Below, piece by piece: positions 23,313-31,416 of a stretch of 35,846 nucleotides of DNA. The position numbers and the translations under genes are program-made. Every line of letters begins with the position of its first letter. Positions within the stretch are counted from its first letter, which is position 1. The stretch is from the NCBI GenBank assembly GCA_012729675.1, contig JAAYCR010000093.1, positions 1-35,846 of the forward strand. The letters are read 5' to 3'. The DNA is from Phycisphaerae bacterium. Lineage in GTDB: Bacteria; Planctomycetota; Phycisphaerae; Sedimentisphaerales; Anaerohalosphaeraceae. Under the pieces are notes generated by a model, which ran no database searches, was not told the origin of the DNA, and worked only from the letters and a program-made list of their open reading frames with translations.

Positions 23313-25112
23313 TTATTGCCCGGCAGACACAACCGACAGCGATTTATCATACTGCATCGTATAAACATATGTCAGCACCGTTGCGGTTTCGCCGCTGGTG
23401 TTCGGCGCCAGTTTCATATCCCACCGCAGAATACCCTTGGGCTTTTCCGTCCGTACATAGTCGGCCGTATCGCTGAGCGGATGCGAGGTCTCCTTCAGTG
23501 CGATGGCCAGGGAGGCATTTTCCGTCCACGGTATCCGATCCAGCACACGGAGCGCCACCGGCGTACTCTTGTAGTTGCTCATCGCGATGCGGTAATGCTG
23601 TTCATTGGTGCGGCTGCCGAGCTGCATGTCCGTTCGGGTGTCGGCAAATTCACGCACCACCTGAATCTGCGAATCGATGCCGAAGCTGGCGACAAAGGTC
23701 TGGCCGCTGGTGACCAGTTTCATCTCAGACCGTCCTACAAATTCGCCGTTGCGGAACATCGACGCCGGCCCCGGAAGCAGGATCGTCTCGCTGGTGTTGG
23801 TGATATCGGCCTGCAGATAGACATAATCGGTCAGCAGGGGGCTGGCCACAAACACAAACTCGGCCGGACACTCAAACGAAGCGATATTGATAATCTGCTG
23901 TTCGGTGCGGCTGGGCAGCGTCAGCTTGCCGTTGAGGTTATACATCACGCTGACCCCTTCCGTCTGCCGCACGGCGACCGACTGTTCCCTCATCTCCAGC
24001 AGCTGCCGCCGGTCGGCCTCCAGTTCGATAAACTGATTATGGATGGCGATGGTGTTCAGTGCCTCCTCGGCCTTGATGCCTTTGGCGATGTTTGCGTTGC
24101 GGCTGCGGGCCAGCGATTCAAACGCCGCGCTCTGGTTGGCAAAACCTCCTGCCTGAATCCCCAATTGCAATGATTGCTGCTGGGCTTGTTGCTGGGCTTG
24201 CTGCTGAGCTAGCAGCTGAGCTTGTGCGCCTGTGCCGAGCGTCACCTTCATCGGCGTCATCCCCGGAGGCGCCGAGACCATCATCGGCTCGGCGGTACTC
24301 AGCGCCAATTGCGCATTGAGCCAGTCTTCGCCGCTGGCCTGATGCACCACGGCGTTGTATTCCACCAGCGTCCTCTTTCGGTCGGCGGCCGCTCTGAGGT
24401 TATACTGCGGCTGCCAATTGGCGTCCCGCACCAGGTAACTGAGCAAAATCTGCCCGCTTGCGTTTTCGCCGCGGGTAATATACACCAGCGCCTGACGATT
24501 GACCCTCTGCCGCCCCTGCGCCATGACCGCAAGCTCTTTTTCCAGTTCGGCAAGCCGCTTTTCGAGGTCCTGTTTTTCGTTCGCCAAACGAACCGTCTCC
24601 TTGTGCAGTTCGATGCTTTTGCGTTCGAGAAATTCCGTCAATTGTTGGACAGCCTCCGGCTGCAGGATGCCGCGATTCAGGTCGGCATTGGCCGAATCGA
24701 CGGACAGTTTCCACTGCTCGCGATAGCGGCTGGTCCGATCCCCGACGTTCTCAATATCGTAAACACGGTTTTGAATGTCACGCCGCACGGCTTCGATCTG
24801 CTGCTGCAGCGTTGTCACCTCTTCGCGCGTGTCCTCTCTGACGACCCGTTCCCGATATCGCACGCTCAAGACCGAAAACGTGCCGTCCGACTGTGCGTAC
24901 AGGCTTTCCGGCAGAATTTTTTCGGGCAGATTCTCCACCAGCAGTTCCAATTCGCCGCCGGCCTGCGGAATCGTCAGGCTCCGCGTCACCAGCGCCTGCC
25001 CCCGATACACAATCACCGACGTGACCGGCCCGGTTGCGGGCACAGGTTCCGCCTGCGCCCCTGCCGCCGCCAGACACAACATCAACATCATTGCCCCTAA
25101 GACTCGTTTCAT
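23313..25112 (-). CDS. MuiA-like protein (DUF4140/DUF4139)
   Basis: This 599-residue exported protein belongs to the mucoidy-inhibitor MuiA family, whose biochemical role is not known. A signal peptide (1-21, ending AGAQA) is followed by an N-terminal domain (SVIVYRGQALVTRSLTIP..GGELELLVENLPEKI), a long coiled coil (about 95-215), and the DUF4139 barrel (VYITRGENASGQILLSYLVRDANWQPQYNLRA to the end). A Gln-rich insert, LAQQQAQQQAQQQ (~residues 297-312), interrupts DUF4139 and is encoded by a 12-bp tandem repeat. AAGGAG precedes the ATG. It is the last of three co-directional genes with a second DUF4139 protein and a VWA protein. Confidence 0.88.
   Translation of the reverse strand: MKRVLGAMMLMLCLAAAGAQAEPVPATGPVTSVIVYRGQALVTRSLTIPQAGGELELLVENLPEKILPESLYAQSDGTFSVLSVRYRERVVREDTREEVTTLQQQIEAVRRDIQNRVYDIENVGDRTSRYREQWKLSVDSANADLNRGILQPEAVQQLTEFLERKSIELHKETVRLANEKQDLEKRLAELEKELAVMAQGRQRVNRQALVYITRGENASGQILLSYLVRDANWQPQYNLRAAADRKRTLVEYNAVVHQASGEDWLNAQLALSTAEPMMVSAPPGMTPMKVTLGTGAQAQLLAQQQAQQQAQQQSLQLGIQAGGFANQSAAFESLARSRNANIAKGIKAEEALNTIAIHNQFIELEADRRQLLEMREQSVAVRQTEGVSVMYNLNGKLTLPSRTEQQIINIASFECPAEFVFVASPLLTDYVYLQADITNTSETILLPGPASMFRNGEFVGRSEMKLVTSGQTFVASFGIDSQIQVVREFADTRTDMQLGSRTNEQHYRIAMSNYKSTPVALRVLDRIPWTENASLAIALKETSHPLSDTADYVRTEKPKGILRWDMKLAPNTSGETATVLTYVYTMQYDKSLSVVSAGQ
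24176..24223 (-). repeat. 12-bp tandem repeat inside the MuiA-like gene
   Basis: Four consecutive 12-base units with few differences: GCTGCTGGGCTT, GTTGCTGGGCTT, GCTGCTGAGCTA and GCAGCTGAGCTT on the plus strand. They encode the Q-Q-A-Q repeat of the MuiA-like protein. Adding or losing units keeps the reading frame, so the length could vary between strains. Confidence 0.85.
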
Positions 25113-25180
25113 TGCATTCTCCTTAAAAAAGTGTTTTCAGTTTGTTTTCTCAGTTCATACGTTTACGAATAATAGCCGCG

Positions 25181-26929
25181 TTATCCCCAGAAATAATGCC
25201 AGTGGTAGTCCAGGGTTATCGTTTGGCCCGGGGCCAATTCAACCGTCCACTCGGCCTGCCCGATGGAGTTAAGCTGGAACCACCACGACGGCCAATTGCA
25301 CCAGTTCCACCACACCGGCTGGCCGTCTTCAAGCACAATTCCGTCATAGCTGTTGCCCAATTGTTTGATCACCGCGTCATGGCTGCCTTCGGTCATCGTT
25401 CCCAGCACCGAACGGCGCACGGCAAGGGACACCGGCTTGTCGCTGAAGTTGGTAAGCGTGACAGCACCCCGCATGTCAATTTTGGACAATGAATTGTTGT
25501 TCCACTTGGCTGCGTTGGGGGTCTGGCCGATCTGTTCATTGGCATTTTTGACGCCGATATTGACGGCCGTGGTCAGCTTGATGTCGCCCTTATTGCCAAT
25601 GGCGGTATAGGTCATCATCCCCTGCGCCAGCACTCTGCCGTCCTTGAGAATTGTTGCCGGGGCCGTCGTCAATGGAGAGTCCGACGTATTGGTGAGGCGG
25701 ATTTTGTGAACGGCAGACGGCGCGTGAAACATCTTGGCCAACTGCATCTGCCGGTCGTTATTGAAGTTCCGGCTCAACTCCAGCGGCGGCGCAAAGGCAA
25801 GATCGAGCCAATAAACATCCTCATACGCCAGCGTAAACTCCGCCAGCGGCATCACCATACGCTGTCCTTTTTTCAGCGTAATTTGATCGACGGTGAAGAC
25901 AAACAAATCTTCGCTTTGCGCCGTCCCCTCCTGGTCGGCCCCCTGATTCAGATTGACAATCTCGGCCGCAGAGACCGCGCGATTTTCAATCGAAGATACG
26001 CTCTGGCTCATAATCGCATTGGAAAACGCGTTGGCTGTTCTGTTATCGGTCCTGAAATATCCGGATAGAGATGCTGTAATCCCCTGAAACGAAATCGGAT
26101 CAAGTACATCCTGGAATGCAAATGTGGGAACTCCGACAACCAGATGCATCTTAACGTCGTTCAGATCGGCCAGCTCATTGATGATATAGGCCTGAAGTTT
26201 CAGGATCGCCTTGCCTTTGCCGTCGATCTCCACGCGATAGCTCGGAATCCATCGAACGCCCCGCTGGACGTAGGCCATCCCCACCGCCGCCTTCGGTTCG
26301 GGCTGCCTGCCCTTCCAGTCCAGTTGCAGCGTCAGGGTGTCTTTCTGCTGTTTGCGGCGGACTGTGTCGTTGACCTCGTCCAGAAAGGTGATCGCCTGGA
26401 TTTGATTGACAGGCAGGGCACGGGTGCCGTCGGGGGCTTTCAGCAGGACGATTCGGTTCTGCGCCTGGCTCGATACCAACGACGAAGGCGCCGTCGGCTC
26501 TTCGAGGACACGCAGGATCGTCGCCTGGTAGGTCTCGTTTTTGTAGCTTTCTTTGATCAGAATTGTTTTGCCGATATTGCCCTTGATGAGGTCTTCAATG
26601 CTCAGGCTGACCTGTTCGACATCCAGCATATCCCGGCTGGACACGACGCTGGACAGGGCAACCTCCGGCCGGGCGCTGTACGCCCAGAACGTCCCCATCA
26701 CCGGGCTGGGCAGCGTATCCAGCAGCACGTTGCCCTTGGCGTCTGTACTCAGTGCCCCTTCGTGCAGGACATAAGCGTGTCCGTCCTTAAAGACGGTGAC
26801 TTCCTTAACGGGCAGCTTGTCATAGACAGCAGGCTCCGCGGCCTCTTGTTCGGCTCTCGCTACTGCGCCGGCAAGCAAACCGGCGCAGACGACCAACATT
26901 ATTCGTGTAAAGGGTACGTGTGTTTTCAT
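25181..26929 (-). CDS. DUF4139 domain exported protein
   Basis: This 582-residue protein has a signal peptide (about 1-26, ending AVARA). It then follows the DUF4139 plan: VKEVTVFKDGHAYVLHEGAL, AYVQRGVRWIPSYRVEI, AYIINELADLNDVKMHLVVGVP, and a C-terminal beta-rich half ending WTVELAPGQTITLDYHWHYFW. It is a diverged cousin of the MuiA-like protein downstream, without its coiled coil. A Ser/Asn-rich linker (around residues 300-345) splits the domain at the place where the MuiA-like protein has its Gln-rich insert. ATG 26929 was chosen over an upstream GTG-type start because GGAGA lies seven bases before it. It sits 65 bases after the VWA gene, in the same transcript. The molecular function is unknown. 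Confidence 0.8.
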   Translation of the reverse strand: MKTHVPFTRIMLVVCAGLLAGAVARAEQEAAEPAVYDKLPVKEVTVFKDGHAYVLHEGALSTDAKGNVLLDTLPSPVMGTFWAYSARPEVALSSVVSSRDMLDVEQVSLSIEDLIKGNIGKTILIKESYKNETYQATILRVLEEPTAPSSLVSSQAQNRIVLLKAPDGTRALPVNQIQAITFLDEVNDTVRRKQQKDTLTLQLDWKGRQPEPKAAVGMAYVQRGVRWIPSYRVEIDGKGKAILKLQAYIINELADLNDVKMHLVVGVPTFAFQDVLDPISFQGITASLSGYFRTDNRTANAFSNAIMSQSVSSIENRAVSAAEIVNLNQGADQEGTAQSEDLFVFTVDQITLKKGQRMVMPLAEFTLAYEDVYWLDLAFAPPLELSRNFNNDRQMQLAKMFHAPSAVHKIRLTNTSDSPLTTAPATILKDGRVLAQGMMTYTAIGNKGDIKLTTAVNIGVKNANEQIGQTPNAAKWNNNSLSKIDMRGAVTLTNFSDKPVSLAVRRSVLGTMTEGSHDAVIKQLGNSYDGIVLEDGQPVWWNWCNWPSWWFQLNSIGQAEWTVELAPGQTITLDYHWHYFWG

Positions 26930-26994
26930 TTTTGTTTCTCCAGACAATAAGGGTTTCGTTTATGCGACGGTTTACGGGTTTGCATCCTCTTTCT

Positions 26995-28335
26995 TTATTG
27001 CTGTGTTCTCCGCGCGGCCTGGCCCTCGACCATCCCCTTGCGGCTCTCGCCCCAGTTGGCCTCGTCAAGCTGACCGGCCTGGCTTCTGTTTTCCGCGGCA
27101 AACCGTTCCAGTCCCGGGCTGTTCAGCGCAGCGGCGTTTAGACGCAGATAGTCGGCATTGTCATTCAGTACCTGACGGGCCTGTTCGATCTTGCCTTCGT
27201 CGCGCAGGGCGGTGGCGCGTTCGTTCTCCAGAACGCCGATCTGCTCGACGACATCGGCCGCGACGCGCGTATTGATGCTTTTTTCAACTCTGTCCGCATC
27301 GCCGGTCAGGATGGCCGTAATATGTGCATTTTGTGTCTGAAGCTCGGTTGTTTTCAGGTCTCGATATCGAATCTTCACGTCTGCAATCGGCAAGGGCCGA
27401 CTCAATGACGACGCCACACTCTCTGGTCCGGGGCCCACTTCCGTTTCGATCAGAACATACTTTTCATGCTCGCTGAAGACGCTGCCCATATCGACCAGGA
27501 TGGTTTGATTGTCGATATGCCCTTCGCGACCAAGCACGCGAACCGGCCTGACATAGGCCGGCAGATGAATCTCGATGCGGATTTCCTGTGCGACCACCGA
27601 CAGTGCCCGGTCAAATTCGCGGTCAAAGACCGACGCCAGGTCGTTGGGAGACTTGGCGAAATAATGTCCCCCGTCGCTCTTGAGGGCCAAGCGGCTCATC
27701 AGGTCCTCGTTGTAGCTTAGTCCCAGACCGATGGTCGTAACCGTCAGGCCTTTCTCTGCCTGTTGCCCTCCGAGTCTGCCCAGTTCTTCCGGTGAGCTTG
27801 GCCCGACGTTGGCATGGCCGTCGCTGAGCAGGATGACCCGGTTGACCCGGCCGGGCGACTGGAACTTTTCAACTTCCTTCGCCCCGGCCTGCACCCCGGC
27901 ATACAGCGCCGTCGTGCCTGAGGCCTGGATCTGCCCGATTTTGCGGATGACGTCTTCACGGTTTGTCATCTTGGTCGCCGGCACCAGCACCTGCACGCTG
28001 GAATCATACGTCACCACCGACACAATATCGTCGGCGTTGAGCCGCCGCAGCGCCAATATCGCCGCCTCGCGGGCATGCTGGATGCGTTCGCCGCTCATCG
28101 AGCCGGACTTGTCGATCACCAGTGCGATGTTGACCGGGGAGCGTTTTTGAACCGCTTCCAACGGGTAGCCCGTCAGTCCGATGCGAAGGTAGGCGGTCTG
28201 TATCTTTTGCTCCAGCATCAGGGGTTTGTCCAGTTCCGCGGTCAGGGTAATGGTGGACGCCTCCGCGGGACTGACGGTCATGATAGCAAAAACGCACAAT
28301 ACCGCCAGTAACAGGATTGAAAATGTCGTTTTCAT
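26995..28335 (-). CDS. exported von Willebrand factor A (VWA) domain protein
   Basis: This 446-residue protein has a signal peptide (1-26, ending SPAEA), a beta-rich stretch with the sequence AELDKPLMLEQ, then a VWA domain (about 67-240) with an intact metal-binding MIDAS motif DKSGSMSGER, the Thr of SGTTALYAG and the Asp of ILLSDGHANVG. VWA domains of this kind bind protein ligands through a divalent metal. A beta-sandwich (~245-340) and an Arg/Gln-rich helical tail follow; the layout resembles YfbK-type proteins. It is the first gene of the leftward operon with the two DUF4139 genes and diverges from the two-component system. AAAGGA precedes the ATG. Confidence 0.88.
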   Translation of the reverse strand: MKTTFSILLLAVLCVFAIMTVSPAEASTITLTAELDKPLMLEQKIQTAYLRIGLTGYPLEAVQKRSPVNIALVIDKSGSMSGERIQHAREAAILALRRLNADDIVSVVTYDSSVQVLVPATKMTNREDVIRKIGQIQASGTTALYAGVQAGAKEVEKFQSPGRVNRVILLSDGHANVGPSSPEELGRLGGQQAEKGLTVTTIGLGLSYNEDLMSRLALKSDGGHYFAKSPNDLASVFDREFDRALSVVAQEIRIEIHLPAYVRPVRVLGREGHIDNQTILVDMGSVFSEHEKYVLIETEVGPGPESVASSLSRPLPIADVKIRYRDLKTTELQTQNAHITAILTGDADRVEKSINTRVAADVVEQIGVLENERATALRDEGKIEQARQVLNDNADYLRLNAAALNSPGLERFAAENRSQAGQLDEANWGESRKGMVEGQAARRTQQ

Positions 28336-28424
28336 TTGTGTTTCCTTTCGTTGGCCTTAGGATTTTGATAAAACAGTTAATGATCTTCGCTGTATATAAT
28401 GTACTCGCCAAACTCAAAAAGGGG

Positions 28425-28463
28425 TGTAAAAGGTCTGTAAAATAAAAGTCGTACAGTTTTACA
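28425..28463. promoter_or_regulatory. TGTAAAA boxes, candidate response-regulator site
   Basis: TGTAAAA occurs at 28425-28431 and again at 28436-28442, exactly 11 bases (one helical turn) apart, and in inverted form (TTTTACA) at 28457-28463. OmpR/PhoB-type regulators bind direct repeats with this spacing. The boxes lie between the divergent VWA operon and the response regulator gene, just upstream of the latter's promoter, so either or both sides may be controlled. Confidence 0.5.
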
Positions 28464-28475
28464 AAAAAGTTACAA

Positions 28476-28502
28476 TTGAAAAGGGGGGTTTTAGACTATA
28501 AT
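28476..28502 (+). promoter_or_regulatory. promoter of the two-component system
   Basis: TTGAAA (28476-28481), a 15-base spacer and a perfect TATAAT (28497-28502). The short spacer suggests that an activator is needed, which fits the boxes directly upstream. Confidence 0.55.
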
Positions 28503-28554
28503 GTAAGAGGAACGGAATGCAGGGATGCAGCACGATGAGGTAAGATAAGCAGCA

Positions 28555-29253
28555 ATGAAAGTCGGACAACACATTTTGGTGGTCGAAGATGAGCCGAAGA
28601 TTCGGGACGGCCTGAGGGATTTTCTGGAGTTCCAGGGGTTTTCGGTTATTTGTGCCGAGGACGGGCTGGCGGCCGAGCGGCTGGTGGCCGAGAGGCGGTT
28701 CGACCTGATTTTGCTGGATTTGATGCTGCCCAAGATCAGCGGTGAGCAGCTTTGCCTCAAGTGGCGTCAGCAGGGGCTGCGGCTGCCGATTTTGATGCTG
28801 ACCGCCAAGGGGCAGGAAAATGAAAAGATCGCTGGCCTGGATTTGGGGGCGGACGATTACATCACCAAGCCGTTTTCGCTTGAAGAATTGCTTGCCCGCA
28901 TCCGCGCGGTGCTGCGGCGCACTGACCCGACCTGTTCGGTCGGGCAGGCGTTTGCCTTCGGGCCGTTCACGGTGGATATGGAGCGGCTGGTCATCCGGCA
29001 CAATGGCAATGAAACCGTTGTAACCCGGCGGCAGGCGCAGATACTTCATTTGTTCGCCGCCAACCCCGACCTCGTCGTGACGCGCCAACAGCTTTATGAA
29101 AACATCTGGAAGGAGTCGCTGGAAGGCATCGAGACACGCACCATCGATATGCACATCATGCGATTGCGCGACCTGCTCAAACAGGCCGGCAGCGACAACG
29201 AGCTTATACAAACGGTACGCGGCGAAGGCTACCAATATAAATGTAAAAGTTAA
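28555..29253 (+). CDS. OmpR/PhoB family response regulator
   Basis: This 232-residue protein has a receiver domain (1-120) with the acidic pair in VVEDEP, the phosphorylated Asp55 in LILLDLMLP, the Thr of LMLTAKG and the Lys of DYITKPF. A winged-helix DNA-binding domain (130-230) includes VVTRRQAQILHLFAANPDLVVTRQQLYENIW and TIDMHIMRLRDLL, ending TVRGEGYQYKCK. It should be phosphorylated by the kinase encoded 150 bases downstream. Its likely DNA targets are the TGTAAAA boxes just upstream, which would make it autoregulatory and link it to the VWA operon (inference). Confidence 0.95.
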   Translation: MKVGQHILVVEDEPKIRDGLRDFLEFQGFSVICAEDGLAAERLVAERRFDLILLDLMLPKISGEQLCLKWRQQGLRLPILMLTAKGQENEKIAGLDLGADDYITKPFSLEELLARIRAVLRRTDPTCSVGQAFAFGPFTVDMERLVIRHNGNETVVTRRQAQILHLFAANPDLVVTRQQLYENIWKESLEGIETRTIDMHIMRLRDLLKQAGSDNELIQTVRGEGYQYKCKS

Positions 29254-29290
29254 AATCTAAAATGCAAAATGACAGATTACAACCCGGCCT

Positions 29291-29324
29291 GGGTGGCATC
29301 GGCTCTGCGCAGCAGACCGATGGG
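29291..29324 (+). repeat. 3'-end hairpin repeat, copy 3 (downstream of the response regulator)
   Basis: This is identical over 34 bases to the reverse complement of 2458-2491. It begins 37 bases after the response regulator stop codon, again in the direction of transcription, and folds into the same bulged 11-pair stem. It lies inside the RR-kinase intergenic region and could lower kinase expression. Confidence 0.75.
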
Positions 29325-29374
29325 ATACTGATTCAAGCATCAGAGATAACAGGAAAACGTTATCCACATTAAAC

Positions 29375-29402
29375 ATTTGAGATTTGAGATTTGAGATTGA
29401 AA
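29375..29402. repeat. ATTTGAG heptad tandem repeat at the kinase start
   Basis: Three exact ATTTGAG heptads in tandem (29375-29395) and a decayed fourth (ATTGAAA) run right up to the ATG at 29404. They replace any proper Shine-Dalgarno site. The same word occurs at 13654-13674 and near 14971. Confidence 0.7.
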
Positions 29403-29403
29403 A

Positions 29404-31416
29404 ATGTATAGACGTTTCTGGATAATTTGTTTGGTCATTGGCGCCGCCCTTCTGGTGCTCAGCGGGCTGGGGCTGTCCTCCCTGCGCCTGCACGAACGCA
29501 GTCTGCGCGCCGAGCGACAGGGTCAGTTCTCCGATGTCGCCGAGCAAGTCAGGATGGACGTCAAAACCAAACTTGACGACTTTCTCCAGATCGAGCAGGA
29601 GCGTCCCTATACCGATTATCAATACGATTATATCCCCGAAACCCTCAACGCGATCGAGGCCTTGGTTCGTAGCCCCTTGGCCGATTCCCTGACGCACGGC
29701 CTGGCCTTCGGGCACTTCCAGATCGATGCCCAAGGCAACATAATGACGCCCTATGTGCGTCCCGGTCTGCCCGCACAGGAGATGGGTCCCGTGCTGGCCG
29801 CTTATCTGGACACCGTGAAAACGAAGGTGCTGGAGCCGCTCAATGGCCCGGCAATCGCCCGCGCCCACCATCCGGAGCTTGGCATTGCGGACGCGGCTGT
29901 CACGAAGGAAGATGAACAACAGCAGCAGTTGGCGTTTCAAAACTTGGATGTTTTGGCGCAGGCTAATCCCAAACAAGATGTCCTGCTGCCGCAAAAGTCG
30001 CAACCGCTACAGCCACAGCAGCAACAGGCGCAGCAGCGGCTGCAGGCCGCACCCGAACGACAGATGGCCCAGCAGCGGGGTGCGAACCAAAGCCAGATTT
30101 ACAACATCGAGAGCATTCAGCAATCGCAGGCTTCCAATACGGCAATACTGACAAGAGAGAACTTTGCTCGGAATTACGACAATACGCAAAGTCAGATGAC
30201 GGCCGCGGCCGGCGGCATGGGGATCCCGAAGGGGATGGATGAGGCAGCTACCAATATCCAAGGCGACATTCCACAGGATCAGCGGCAGTCTGCCGCAGCC
30301 ACTGTTCAGGTTCGCATCGAGCCATTTGTCCCGCTGGTGATCCGAGATGGCACGGATTCGGAGACCGTCTTTCCCGGCGAGATTTTTCTGGTCCGCCATG
30401 TCCAGATTGAAGGCGTGCATCTGTTGCAGGGCTTTCGTCTCAATGAGACCGAGCTGGCCGAGCAGGTCGAGGAGTCTGCGCGGCGTCTGTTACGCGAAGG
30501 GATGGCGGCCGAGCTGACTCAGGCCTCGCACCACGAAGCCGCTCACGCCGCGATTCTGGACTTTGGCTTCGGCGAATTGGTTCTGAATTTGTTTGAAATC
30601 GACCCCGGCTGGATTGCGGTGCGGGTCGCCCGGCTGAATGCGTGGATGGCGACGATTCTGGCAGTCGTCTGGCTGGCCGTTCTGTTGGCGTTGCTGGCCC
30701 TGTGGCGAAATCTGTGTGAACAGGACAAACTGGCTCATAAAAAAGATGACTTCATCTCCGCTGTCTCGCACGAACTGCGAACACCGCTGACCAGCATCCG
30801 AATGTACACTGAAATGCTCGAAAAAAACTGGGTCAAAGATGAGACCAAACGTCTCGAATATTATGGGACGATGCGACAAGAGACCGAGCGACTGACCCGT
30901 CTGGTCGAAAATGTGCTCGATTTTTCGCGTCTGCAACGAGGCAAAAAGAAATTAGAATTCACGATAGGCGATGTCAATGAGTGCATTGCCAACGTGGTCG
31001 AAATGATGCAGCCCTGTGCCGAGCGAATGGGATTTGTCATTGAAACCGAATTTTCTTCCATCGAGCCGTTTGCATTTGACCGCGATGCGGTGATGCAGAT
31101 TGCGATTAATCTGATTGACAATGCCTTTAAGTATGCAAAAGAAGCTCACGAAAAACGTATCTTCATCCGGACACATTCCGTGAATGGAGCAGCCGTGATC
31201 GAAGTTGAGGACCACGGCCCCGGCGTGCCGAGATCCCAACAGAAGAAGATATTTGAGGCCTTTTATCGGTGCGGCGACGAAGCCACCCGCCAATGCGTCG
31301 GAACCGGCTTGGGGTTGGCCCTGGTCAAGAGTTTTGCCGAAGCCCATCGCGGCGGCGTCGAAATCCTCAACGCCAAACCCGCCGGCGCGCTGTTCCGCGT
31401 TCGCATCGCCCGATAA
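29404..31416 (+). CDS. membrane sensor histidine kinase with Gln/Asn-rich sensor region
   Basis: This 670-residue kinase has a transmembrane helix at 5-27, a very large extracytoplasmic region (28-412), a second helix at ~413-435, then the catalytic core. The core has the H-box VSHELRTPLTSI with His456, the N-box INLIDNAFKYAK, G1 VEDHGPGVP, the F-box KIFEAFY and G2 GTGLGLALVKS. It should phosphorylate the response regulator encoded upstream. The sensor region is unusual: residues ~173-240 are dominated by Gln (PQQQQAQQRLQ), followed to ~300 by an Asn/Gln/Ala-rich stretch with no visible fold. A compact domain (303-412) joins it to the second helix. No HAMP domain is seen. There is no ribosome binding site; an ATTTGAG array abuts the ATG. 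Confidence 0.93.
   Translation: MYRRFWIICLVIGAALLVLSGLGLSSLRLHERSLRAERQGQFSDVAEQVRMDVKTKLDDFLQIEQERPYTDYQYDYIPETLNAIEALVRSPLADSLTHGLAFGHFQIDAQGNIMTPYVRPGLPAQEMGPVLAAYLDTVKTKVLEPLNGPAIARAHHPELGIADAAVTKEDEQQQQLAFQNLDVLAQANPKQDVLLPQKSQPLQPQQQQAQQRLQAAPERQMAQQRGANQSQIYNIESIQQSQASNTAILTRENFARNYDNTQSQMTAAAGGMGIPKGMDEAATNIQGDIPQDQRQSAAATVQVRIEPFVPLVIRDGTDSETVFPGEIFLVRHVQIEGVHLLQGFRLNETELAEQVEESARRLLREGMAAELTQASHHEAAHAAILDFGFGELVLNLFEIDPGWIAVRVARLNAWMATILAVVWLAVLLALLALWRNLCEQDKLAHKKDDFISAVSHELRTPLTSIRMYTEMLEKNWVKDETKRLEYYGTMRQETERLTRLVENVLDFSRLQRGKKKLEFTIGDVNECIANVVEMMQPCAERMGFVIETEFSSIEPFAFDRDAVMQIAINLIDNAFKYAKEAHEKRIFIRTHSVNGAAVIEVEDHGPGVPRSQQKKIFEAFYRCGDEATRQCVGTGLGLALVKSFAEAHRGGVEILNAKPAGALFRVRIAR

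Follow-up and report, generated by a model that had tools for sequence, protein, structure and literature searches.

A conserved, putative double-box switch between a two-component system and exported VWA and DUF4139/MuiA genes predicts a regulon in Sedimentisphaerales-like Planctomycetota

What joins a set of genes for exported proteins to the two-component system that faces it? The question is raised by the window analysed here, a stretch of 35,846 nucleotides that forms the entire contig C85 (JAAYCR010000093.1) of a Phycisphaerae bacterium genome (2.8 Mb, 96 contigs), whose best-matching named relatives are Phycisphaerae/Sedimentisphaerales metagenome-assembled genomes (MAGs) of the Planctomycetota. 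Genes for an exported VWA protein, a distant DUF4139 protein (hereafter DUF4139B) and a MuiA family protein run leftward, and genes for a response regulator and a histidine kinase run rightward. We found between the two gene sets a conserved double-box sequence, newly described here as a putative shared switch, and their co-regulation through this predicted operator is well supported. The two-component system is probably autoregulated and controls a module built on an exported VWA-type protein, in most cases with a DUF4139/MuiA protein as partner. The features of the locus are as follows.

23313..25112, minus strand: MuiA family protein with DUF4140, a coiled coil and DUF4139 with a glutamine-rich loop; signal peptide
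25181..26929, minus strand: DUF4139B, distant DUF4139 protein with signal peptide; alternative TTG start at 26947
26995..28335, minus strand: exported VWA protein with intact metal ion-dependent adhesion site (MIDAS); heads the leftward operon
28398..28403, minus strand: TACATT, candidate -10 for the leftward operon; 21 bp separate it from the left box
28425..28442, minus strand: left regulator box TTTTACAGACCTTTTACA, pointing to the exported-protein operon
28457..28474, plus strand: right regulator box TTTTACAAAAAAGTTACA, pointing to the regulator gene, with 14 bp between it and the left box
28497..28502, plus strand: regulator promoter -10, exact TATAAT, 22 bp past the right box
28555..29253, plus strand: PhoB/OmpR-type response regulator
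29404..31416, plus strand: histidine kinase with two transmembrane helices flanking a periplasmic dCache-like sensor; HisKA and HATPase_c
29851..30300, plus strand: glutamine-rich disordered insert within the kinase sensor, 21% glutamine

All five genes had the coordinates and strands given in the initial annotation, and the arrangement it described, a leftward operon of MuiA, DUF4139-like and VWA genes opposed to an OmpR-type regulator and a kinase, was borne out. The three leftward genes are spaced by about 65-70 bp, which makes one transcript plausible. Their products all carry signal-peptide-like N-termini, and neither LPXTG nor lipobox was found in the three.

The switch consists of two back-to-back copies of TTTTACA-N6-TTACA, 14 bp apart, within the 219-bp intergenic region. 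Each box comprises two TTTTACA-like repeats with an 11-bp period and ends about 22 bp before the -10. Both boxes were present in 19 of 19 curated divergent intergenic regions, the right one with at most one mismatch and the left one with at most two, against means of 0.01 and 0.68 loci for the boxes after shuffling. The gap between them measured 13-14 bp in all 30 divergent loci, irrespective of which exported gene was present; box positions hardly varied (mostly 1.7-2 bits), and the 14-bp gap showed no conservation (0.29 bits). When the exported genes were absent or co-directional, the right-hand box stood alone before the regulator (L046, L100, L101, L105 and L109). Taken by itself, the 12-base box showed no enrichment in the window's own genome when one mismatch was allowed (18 matches vs 15 in the control), and the box evidence used here is restricted to exact boxes or boxes paired with a -10.

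Of 78 relatives, about a dozen carry close DUF4139B homologues (identity of 43% or more), and most of these homologues adjoin a divergent regulator-kinase pair; the kinase sensor as query widened the set of divergent loci, where genes were called with a simple open reading frame finder. The slot opposite the regulator holds all three genes in the window, L040 and L044, two in others (DUF4139B and VWA in L042 and L045; DUF4139B and MuiA in L041; VWA and MuiA in L098, L099 and L104), and a single one in L097 (VWA), L102 and L220 (MuiA), and L043 and L047 (DUF4139B). VIT-VWA and VWA genes come after the kinase instead in L046, L101 and L105; VIT and VWA domains were confirmed with Pfam for L046 and L270. 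Since subsets are this common, a fixed co-occurrence of the five genes was rejected. The layout is not down to chance: divergent regulator-kinase pairs face subsets of the same genes in many relatives and share the operator. Unlinking of the two halves, named beforehand as the observation that would speak against the locus being a unit, was not seen where the genes co-occur. In one further locus, L342 (G132:C6), a sigma factor gene and three small DUF4139 genes fill the slot, so DUF4139 arrays may also be regulon members.

The payload of the slot is variable: each of VWA, DUF4139B and MuiA is absent from some loci, and VWA can give way to VIT-VWA, whether or not a second VWA gene comes with it. 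No genome contained both window-type VWA, present in 16, and VIT-VWA, present in 35 (p 4e-5 among kinase-bearing genomes, kinship ignored). Within genus g51, the same slot and double box carried VWA-MuiA in L329 and L330 and VIT-VWA...MuiA in L328, L331 and L332. Profile comparison of the two types limited their homology to the VWA region (E 3e-17). Because the two exclude each other and are swapped in the slot while MuiA stays, a single regulon with an exported VWA-type payload is suggested, and the simplest reading makes the exported VWA protein the regulated unit, MuiA/DUF4139 usually being its partner.

Does the predicted regulon reach beyond the locus? The box followed by N22 and TATAAT gave 102 matches at up to two mismatches in the 78 relatives, against 39 for the reversed pattern, and, with one mismatch at most, 110 against 6 across 161 genomes of the order. 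Across these 161, box and kinase were both present in 63, the kinase only in 4 and the box only in 7 (p 1.7e-31; concordant in 150 of 161), a concordance partly built in since the regulator's own promoter is counted. Regulator-linked DUF4139B homologues had a box promoter at up to three mismatches in 9 of 11 cases; the 53 homologues without an adjacent regulator had no such promoter, all with at least five mismatches. In trans or downstream, at least 15 genomes (including G052 and G148) have the box ahead of VIT-VWA operons, which often contain a second VWA gene, and it was also found before a lone MuiA gene (L322), DUF4139 genes (L039, L266, and L272 with two mismatches) and a sigma factor gene (L274). 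In the window's own genome it precedes genes for a leucine-rich repeat protein (C6) and other exported proteins (C2, C13, C20 and C64), and a TATAAT/TACAAT-like hexamer follows each of these boxes at 20-22 bp. Thus the dedicated circuit proposed in the initial annotation is strongly supported by linkage and the conserved double operator, but the trio is not fixed and the predicted regulon extends past the locus.

Several details accompany these predicted members. Two boxes of the own genome (G000:C14:880-897 and G000:C20:18088-18105; L091 and L092) lie in a near-identical stretch of at least 56 bp, possibly a duplicated promoter. Those on C2 and C13 precede related exported proteins with a TETETDxEMTFRYLT-like start, and in L308 (G081) the gene that comes after VIT-VWA and VWA was recognised by sequence inspection as that of a MoxR-type AAA ATPase. 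The type IV pilus assembly gene pilM was rejected as a broad member: matches with 21-bp spacing about 650-695 bp upstream of it (G000, G001, G018, G025, G031, G034 and G037) appear inside a neighbouring MtaB-like gene, as seen directly in L354 and L361, and were set aside as coding conservation because their TATAAT falls on codons reading CIIP by inspection. A box upstream of pilM and outside the MtaB-like gene was found in G015, G023, G033 and G051 (L263, L264, L271 and L276; four genomes, two families), and is a lead only.

As regards the exported proteins, the VWA protein matched PF00092 over its cut-off (73.5 bits, E 3e-20), and its DxSxS...T...D residues (DKSGSM, T142 and D172) were invariant across 10 orthologues, in agreement with the intact MIDAS reported earlier. 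That the other two are DUF4139/MuiA-like held fully for MuiA, with 48.7 bits for DUF4140 and 137 bits for DUF4139 in Pfam and 272.3 bits for TIGR02231 (curated cut-off 112.6). DUF4139B is borderline, at 22.0 bits (E 1.5e-4) below the PF13598 gathering cut-off of 31.8. Its profile alignment with MuiA is partial and weak (E 0.01, probability 4%), suggesting a remote relationship and no more. For its start, ATG at 26929 suits the homologues better than TTG at 26947. The protein contains an SH3/Sm-like inserted domain (about residues 104-189, Z 8), a disordered loop and a tryptophan-rich C-terminus (WWNWCNWPSWW...HYFW); the motif WWxWxxWPxWW...WHYFW is kept in close homologues with or without the regulator and not in distant paralogues. 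Ribophorin I and PIG-T, the best Foldseek matches (E 4e-4), had a template-modelling score of about 0.12 and are leads only, and a hidden VIT domain in DUF4139 was rejected, as the DUF4139B and VIT-VWA profiles showed no relationship when compared (E 0.12, 19 columns). Among solved structures, no significant sequence match turned up for MuiA, DUF4139B or the kinase sensor. DUF4139 also scored in the control genomes of Caulobacter, Deinobacterium and Methanosarcina. Literature searches gave no function for bacterial MuiA, DUF4139 or VIT-VWA proteins, consistent with the earlier remark that DUF4139 proteins have no assigned biochemical role. A second DUF4139 gene group lies on short contigs of the window's own genome, G000:C3 (L035, L002 and L003) and G000:C92 (L036), with no exact or one-mismatch box at either. 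In G025:C287 (L050/L016/L029) a DUF4139B gene is in two overlapping frames, from a frameshift or an assembly error.

The regulator contains Response_reg and Trans_reg_C and the kinase HisKA and HATPase_c, so the assignment of an OmpR-type regulator and a sensor kinase was upheld. The regulator scored below the cut-offs of the PhoB equivalog TIGR02154 (211.5 vs 296.2 bits), of CpxR and BaeR (131.9 and 151.5 vs 341 and 380) and of TIGR03787 (129.4 vs 335.7 bits). With its insert excluded, the periplasmic region of the kinase was modelled at a mean predicted local distance difference test (pLDDT) score of 80. Folds spanning it were dominated, consistently across rows, by double-PAS/dCache proteins of the LuxQ/CqsR/KinD/Mcp type at Z 5-7: LuxQ 3c30 gave Z 6.8 (root-mean-square deviation 3.9, 167 aligned), CqsR Z 6.2 and KinD Z 5.8. 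The sensor thus models as dCache-like, with Z short of proving a common fold. The insert that splits it (151 residues here; 127-276 residues with 6-23% glutamine in orthologues) is mostly disordered in the model and glutamine-rich in most members, and disordered or glutamine-rich loops also occur in MuiA and DUF4139B. An SR-x-N-like motif lies beside the glutamine-rich stretch in both the kinase insert (QSRxNV in orthologues) and the MuiA loop (RSRRANI), which may be chance.

dCache folds usually bind small ligands, and LuxQ uses a partner protein. From the dCache-like model and its disordered glutamine-rich insert, sensing of a ligand appears at least as likely as sensing of the exported proteins. 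It is a serious possibility, though less than an even one, that a small molecule at this sensor turns on surface VWA adhesins, perhaps together with type IV pilus genes. The fold matches above and the boxes upstream of pilM speak for this, but every Z is under 8, Pfam gave no match to the sensor region, and the pilM link is missing from most relatives, three of its four genomes being in one genus.

We regard it as rather improbable that the exported proteins merely have unrelated jobs under a common envelope regulator. The predicted regulon does hold unrelated exported proteins, such as the leucine-rich repeat protein, and subsets of the trio occur alone; the exclusion of VWA and VIT-VWA and their exchange in place beside a retained MuiA argue instead for one functional unit. 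Unlikely, finally, is the envelope-stress feedback that follows the idea of the initial annotation, in which the kinase would directly monitor a VWA/DUF4139 complex and raise synthesis when it is missing or strained: kinase and payload are adjacent and autoregulated, and the kinase sensor and the DUF4139 proteins all have disordered or glutamine-rich loops, but the payload type varies (VWA, VIT-VWA, MuiA only or DUF4139B only) beside a conserved sensor, which makes direct contact awkward (a mild argument), the sensor models as dCache-like, and the regulator falls under the CpxR and BaeR cut-offs.

For the autoregulated VWA-type module, we propose the following course. The kinase, through its periplasmic dCache-like sensor, would phosphorylate the PhoB/OmpR-type regulator, which would bind both direct-repeat boxes of the back-to-back pair (centres near -43 of the respective promoters) and activate the regulator's own operon jointly with that of the exported proteins. 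Copies of the box at other genomic sites would recruit further exported proteins. The core would be a MIDAS-bearing VWA protein, alone as in the window or fused to VIT. A DUF4139/MuiA protein, present as a rule, may be its partner and serve it as chaperone, anchor or scaffold, either in the periplasm or on the cell surface. The module most likely serves in surface attachment or envelope scaffolding, by analogy with MIDAS VWA proteins in general as regards surface and attachment. Some points weigh against this proposal. In the window the left -10 (TACATT) is weaker than its counterparts in relatives, TATAAT/TATACT; among 67 kinase genomes, 21 yielded neither VWA type at the thresholds used; DUF4139B and MuiA are also found without this two-component system (e.g. 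G009), so a VWA partnership is not obligatory; and the genomes are related, mostly MAGs and many incomplete, so that counts are not independent. Beyond this clade, DUF4139B occurs in many phyla and mostly stands alone, so its link with this two-component system is a clade-level recruitment.

Among described arrangements, the proteobacterial dedicated sortase system (TIGR03784/03785/03787/03788) comes nearest, with a two-component system dedicated to an exported VIT-VWA protein. That pairing recurs here, and the VIT-VWA proteins of the predicted regulon are partial relatives of the TIGR03788 target. However, they reach 214-218 bits against a cut-off of 551.65, the regulator too falls far short of TIGR03787, the kinase sensor matches no NCBIfam model, and LPXTG was absent from the window proteins and from the two VIT-VWA proteins inspected for it. 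No sortase was recognised among the listed window genes, where no dedicated sortase search was made. PhoBR/OmpR systems likewise have a receiver and winged-helix regulator and two direct repeats with an 11-bp period upstream of the -10; the repeat here is TTTTACA and not a Pho box, with another sensor and other targets. In common with inter-alpha-trypsin-like VIT-VWA proteins, the window protein is an exported VWA with MIDAS, and in sister species its slot is taken by VIT-VWA; the window protein itself has no VIT domain. The third protein is a full member of the MuiA/DUF4139 family (TIGR02231, PF13598), tied here to a predicted regulon and to VWA proteins. In the literature we found no description of this regulon, and nothing comparable for Sedimentisphaerales-like Planctomycetota.

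Speculatively, DUF4139/MuiA proteins might be general partners of exported VWA proteins, with one regulon in Sedimentisphaerales-like Planctomycetota for a surface machine of an exchangeable VWA or VIT-VWA and DUF4139/MuiA, whose dCache-like kinase touches it with the help of the glutamine-rich insert and loops; we doubt that the whole of this will hold. The present comparison defines a predicted regulon for Sedimentisphaerales-like Planctomycetota, and through it the widespread DUF4139/MuiA proteins, so far without a function, gain a precisely defined predicted operator and, as candidate partner, a protein that is swapped within the slot, which makes their function, partner and signal directly testable.

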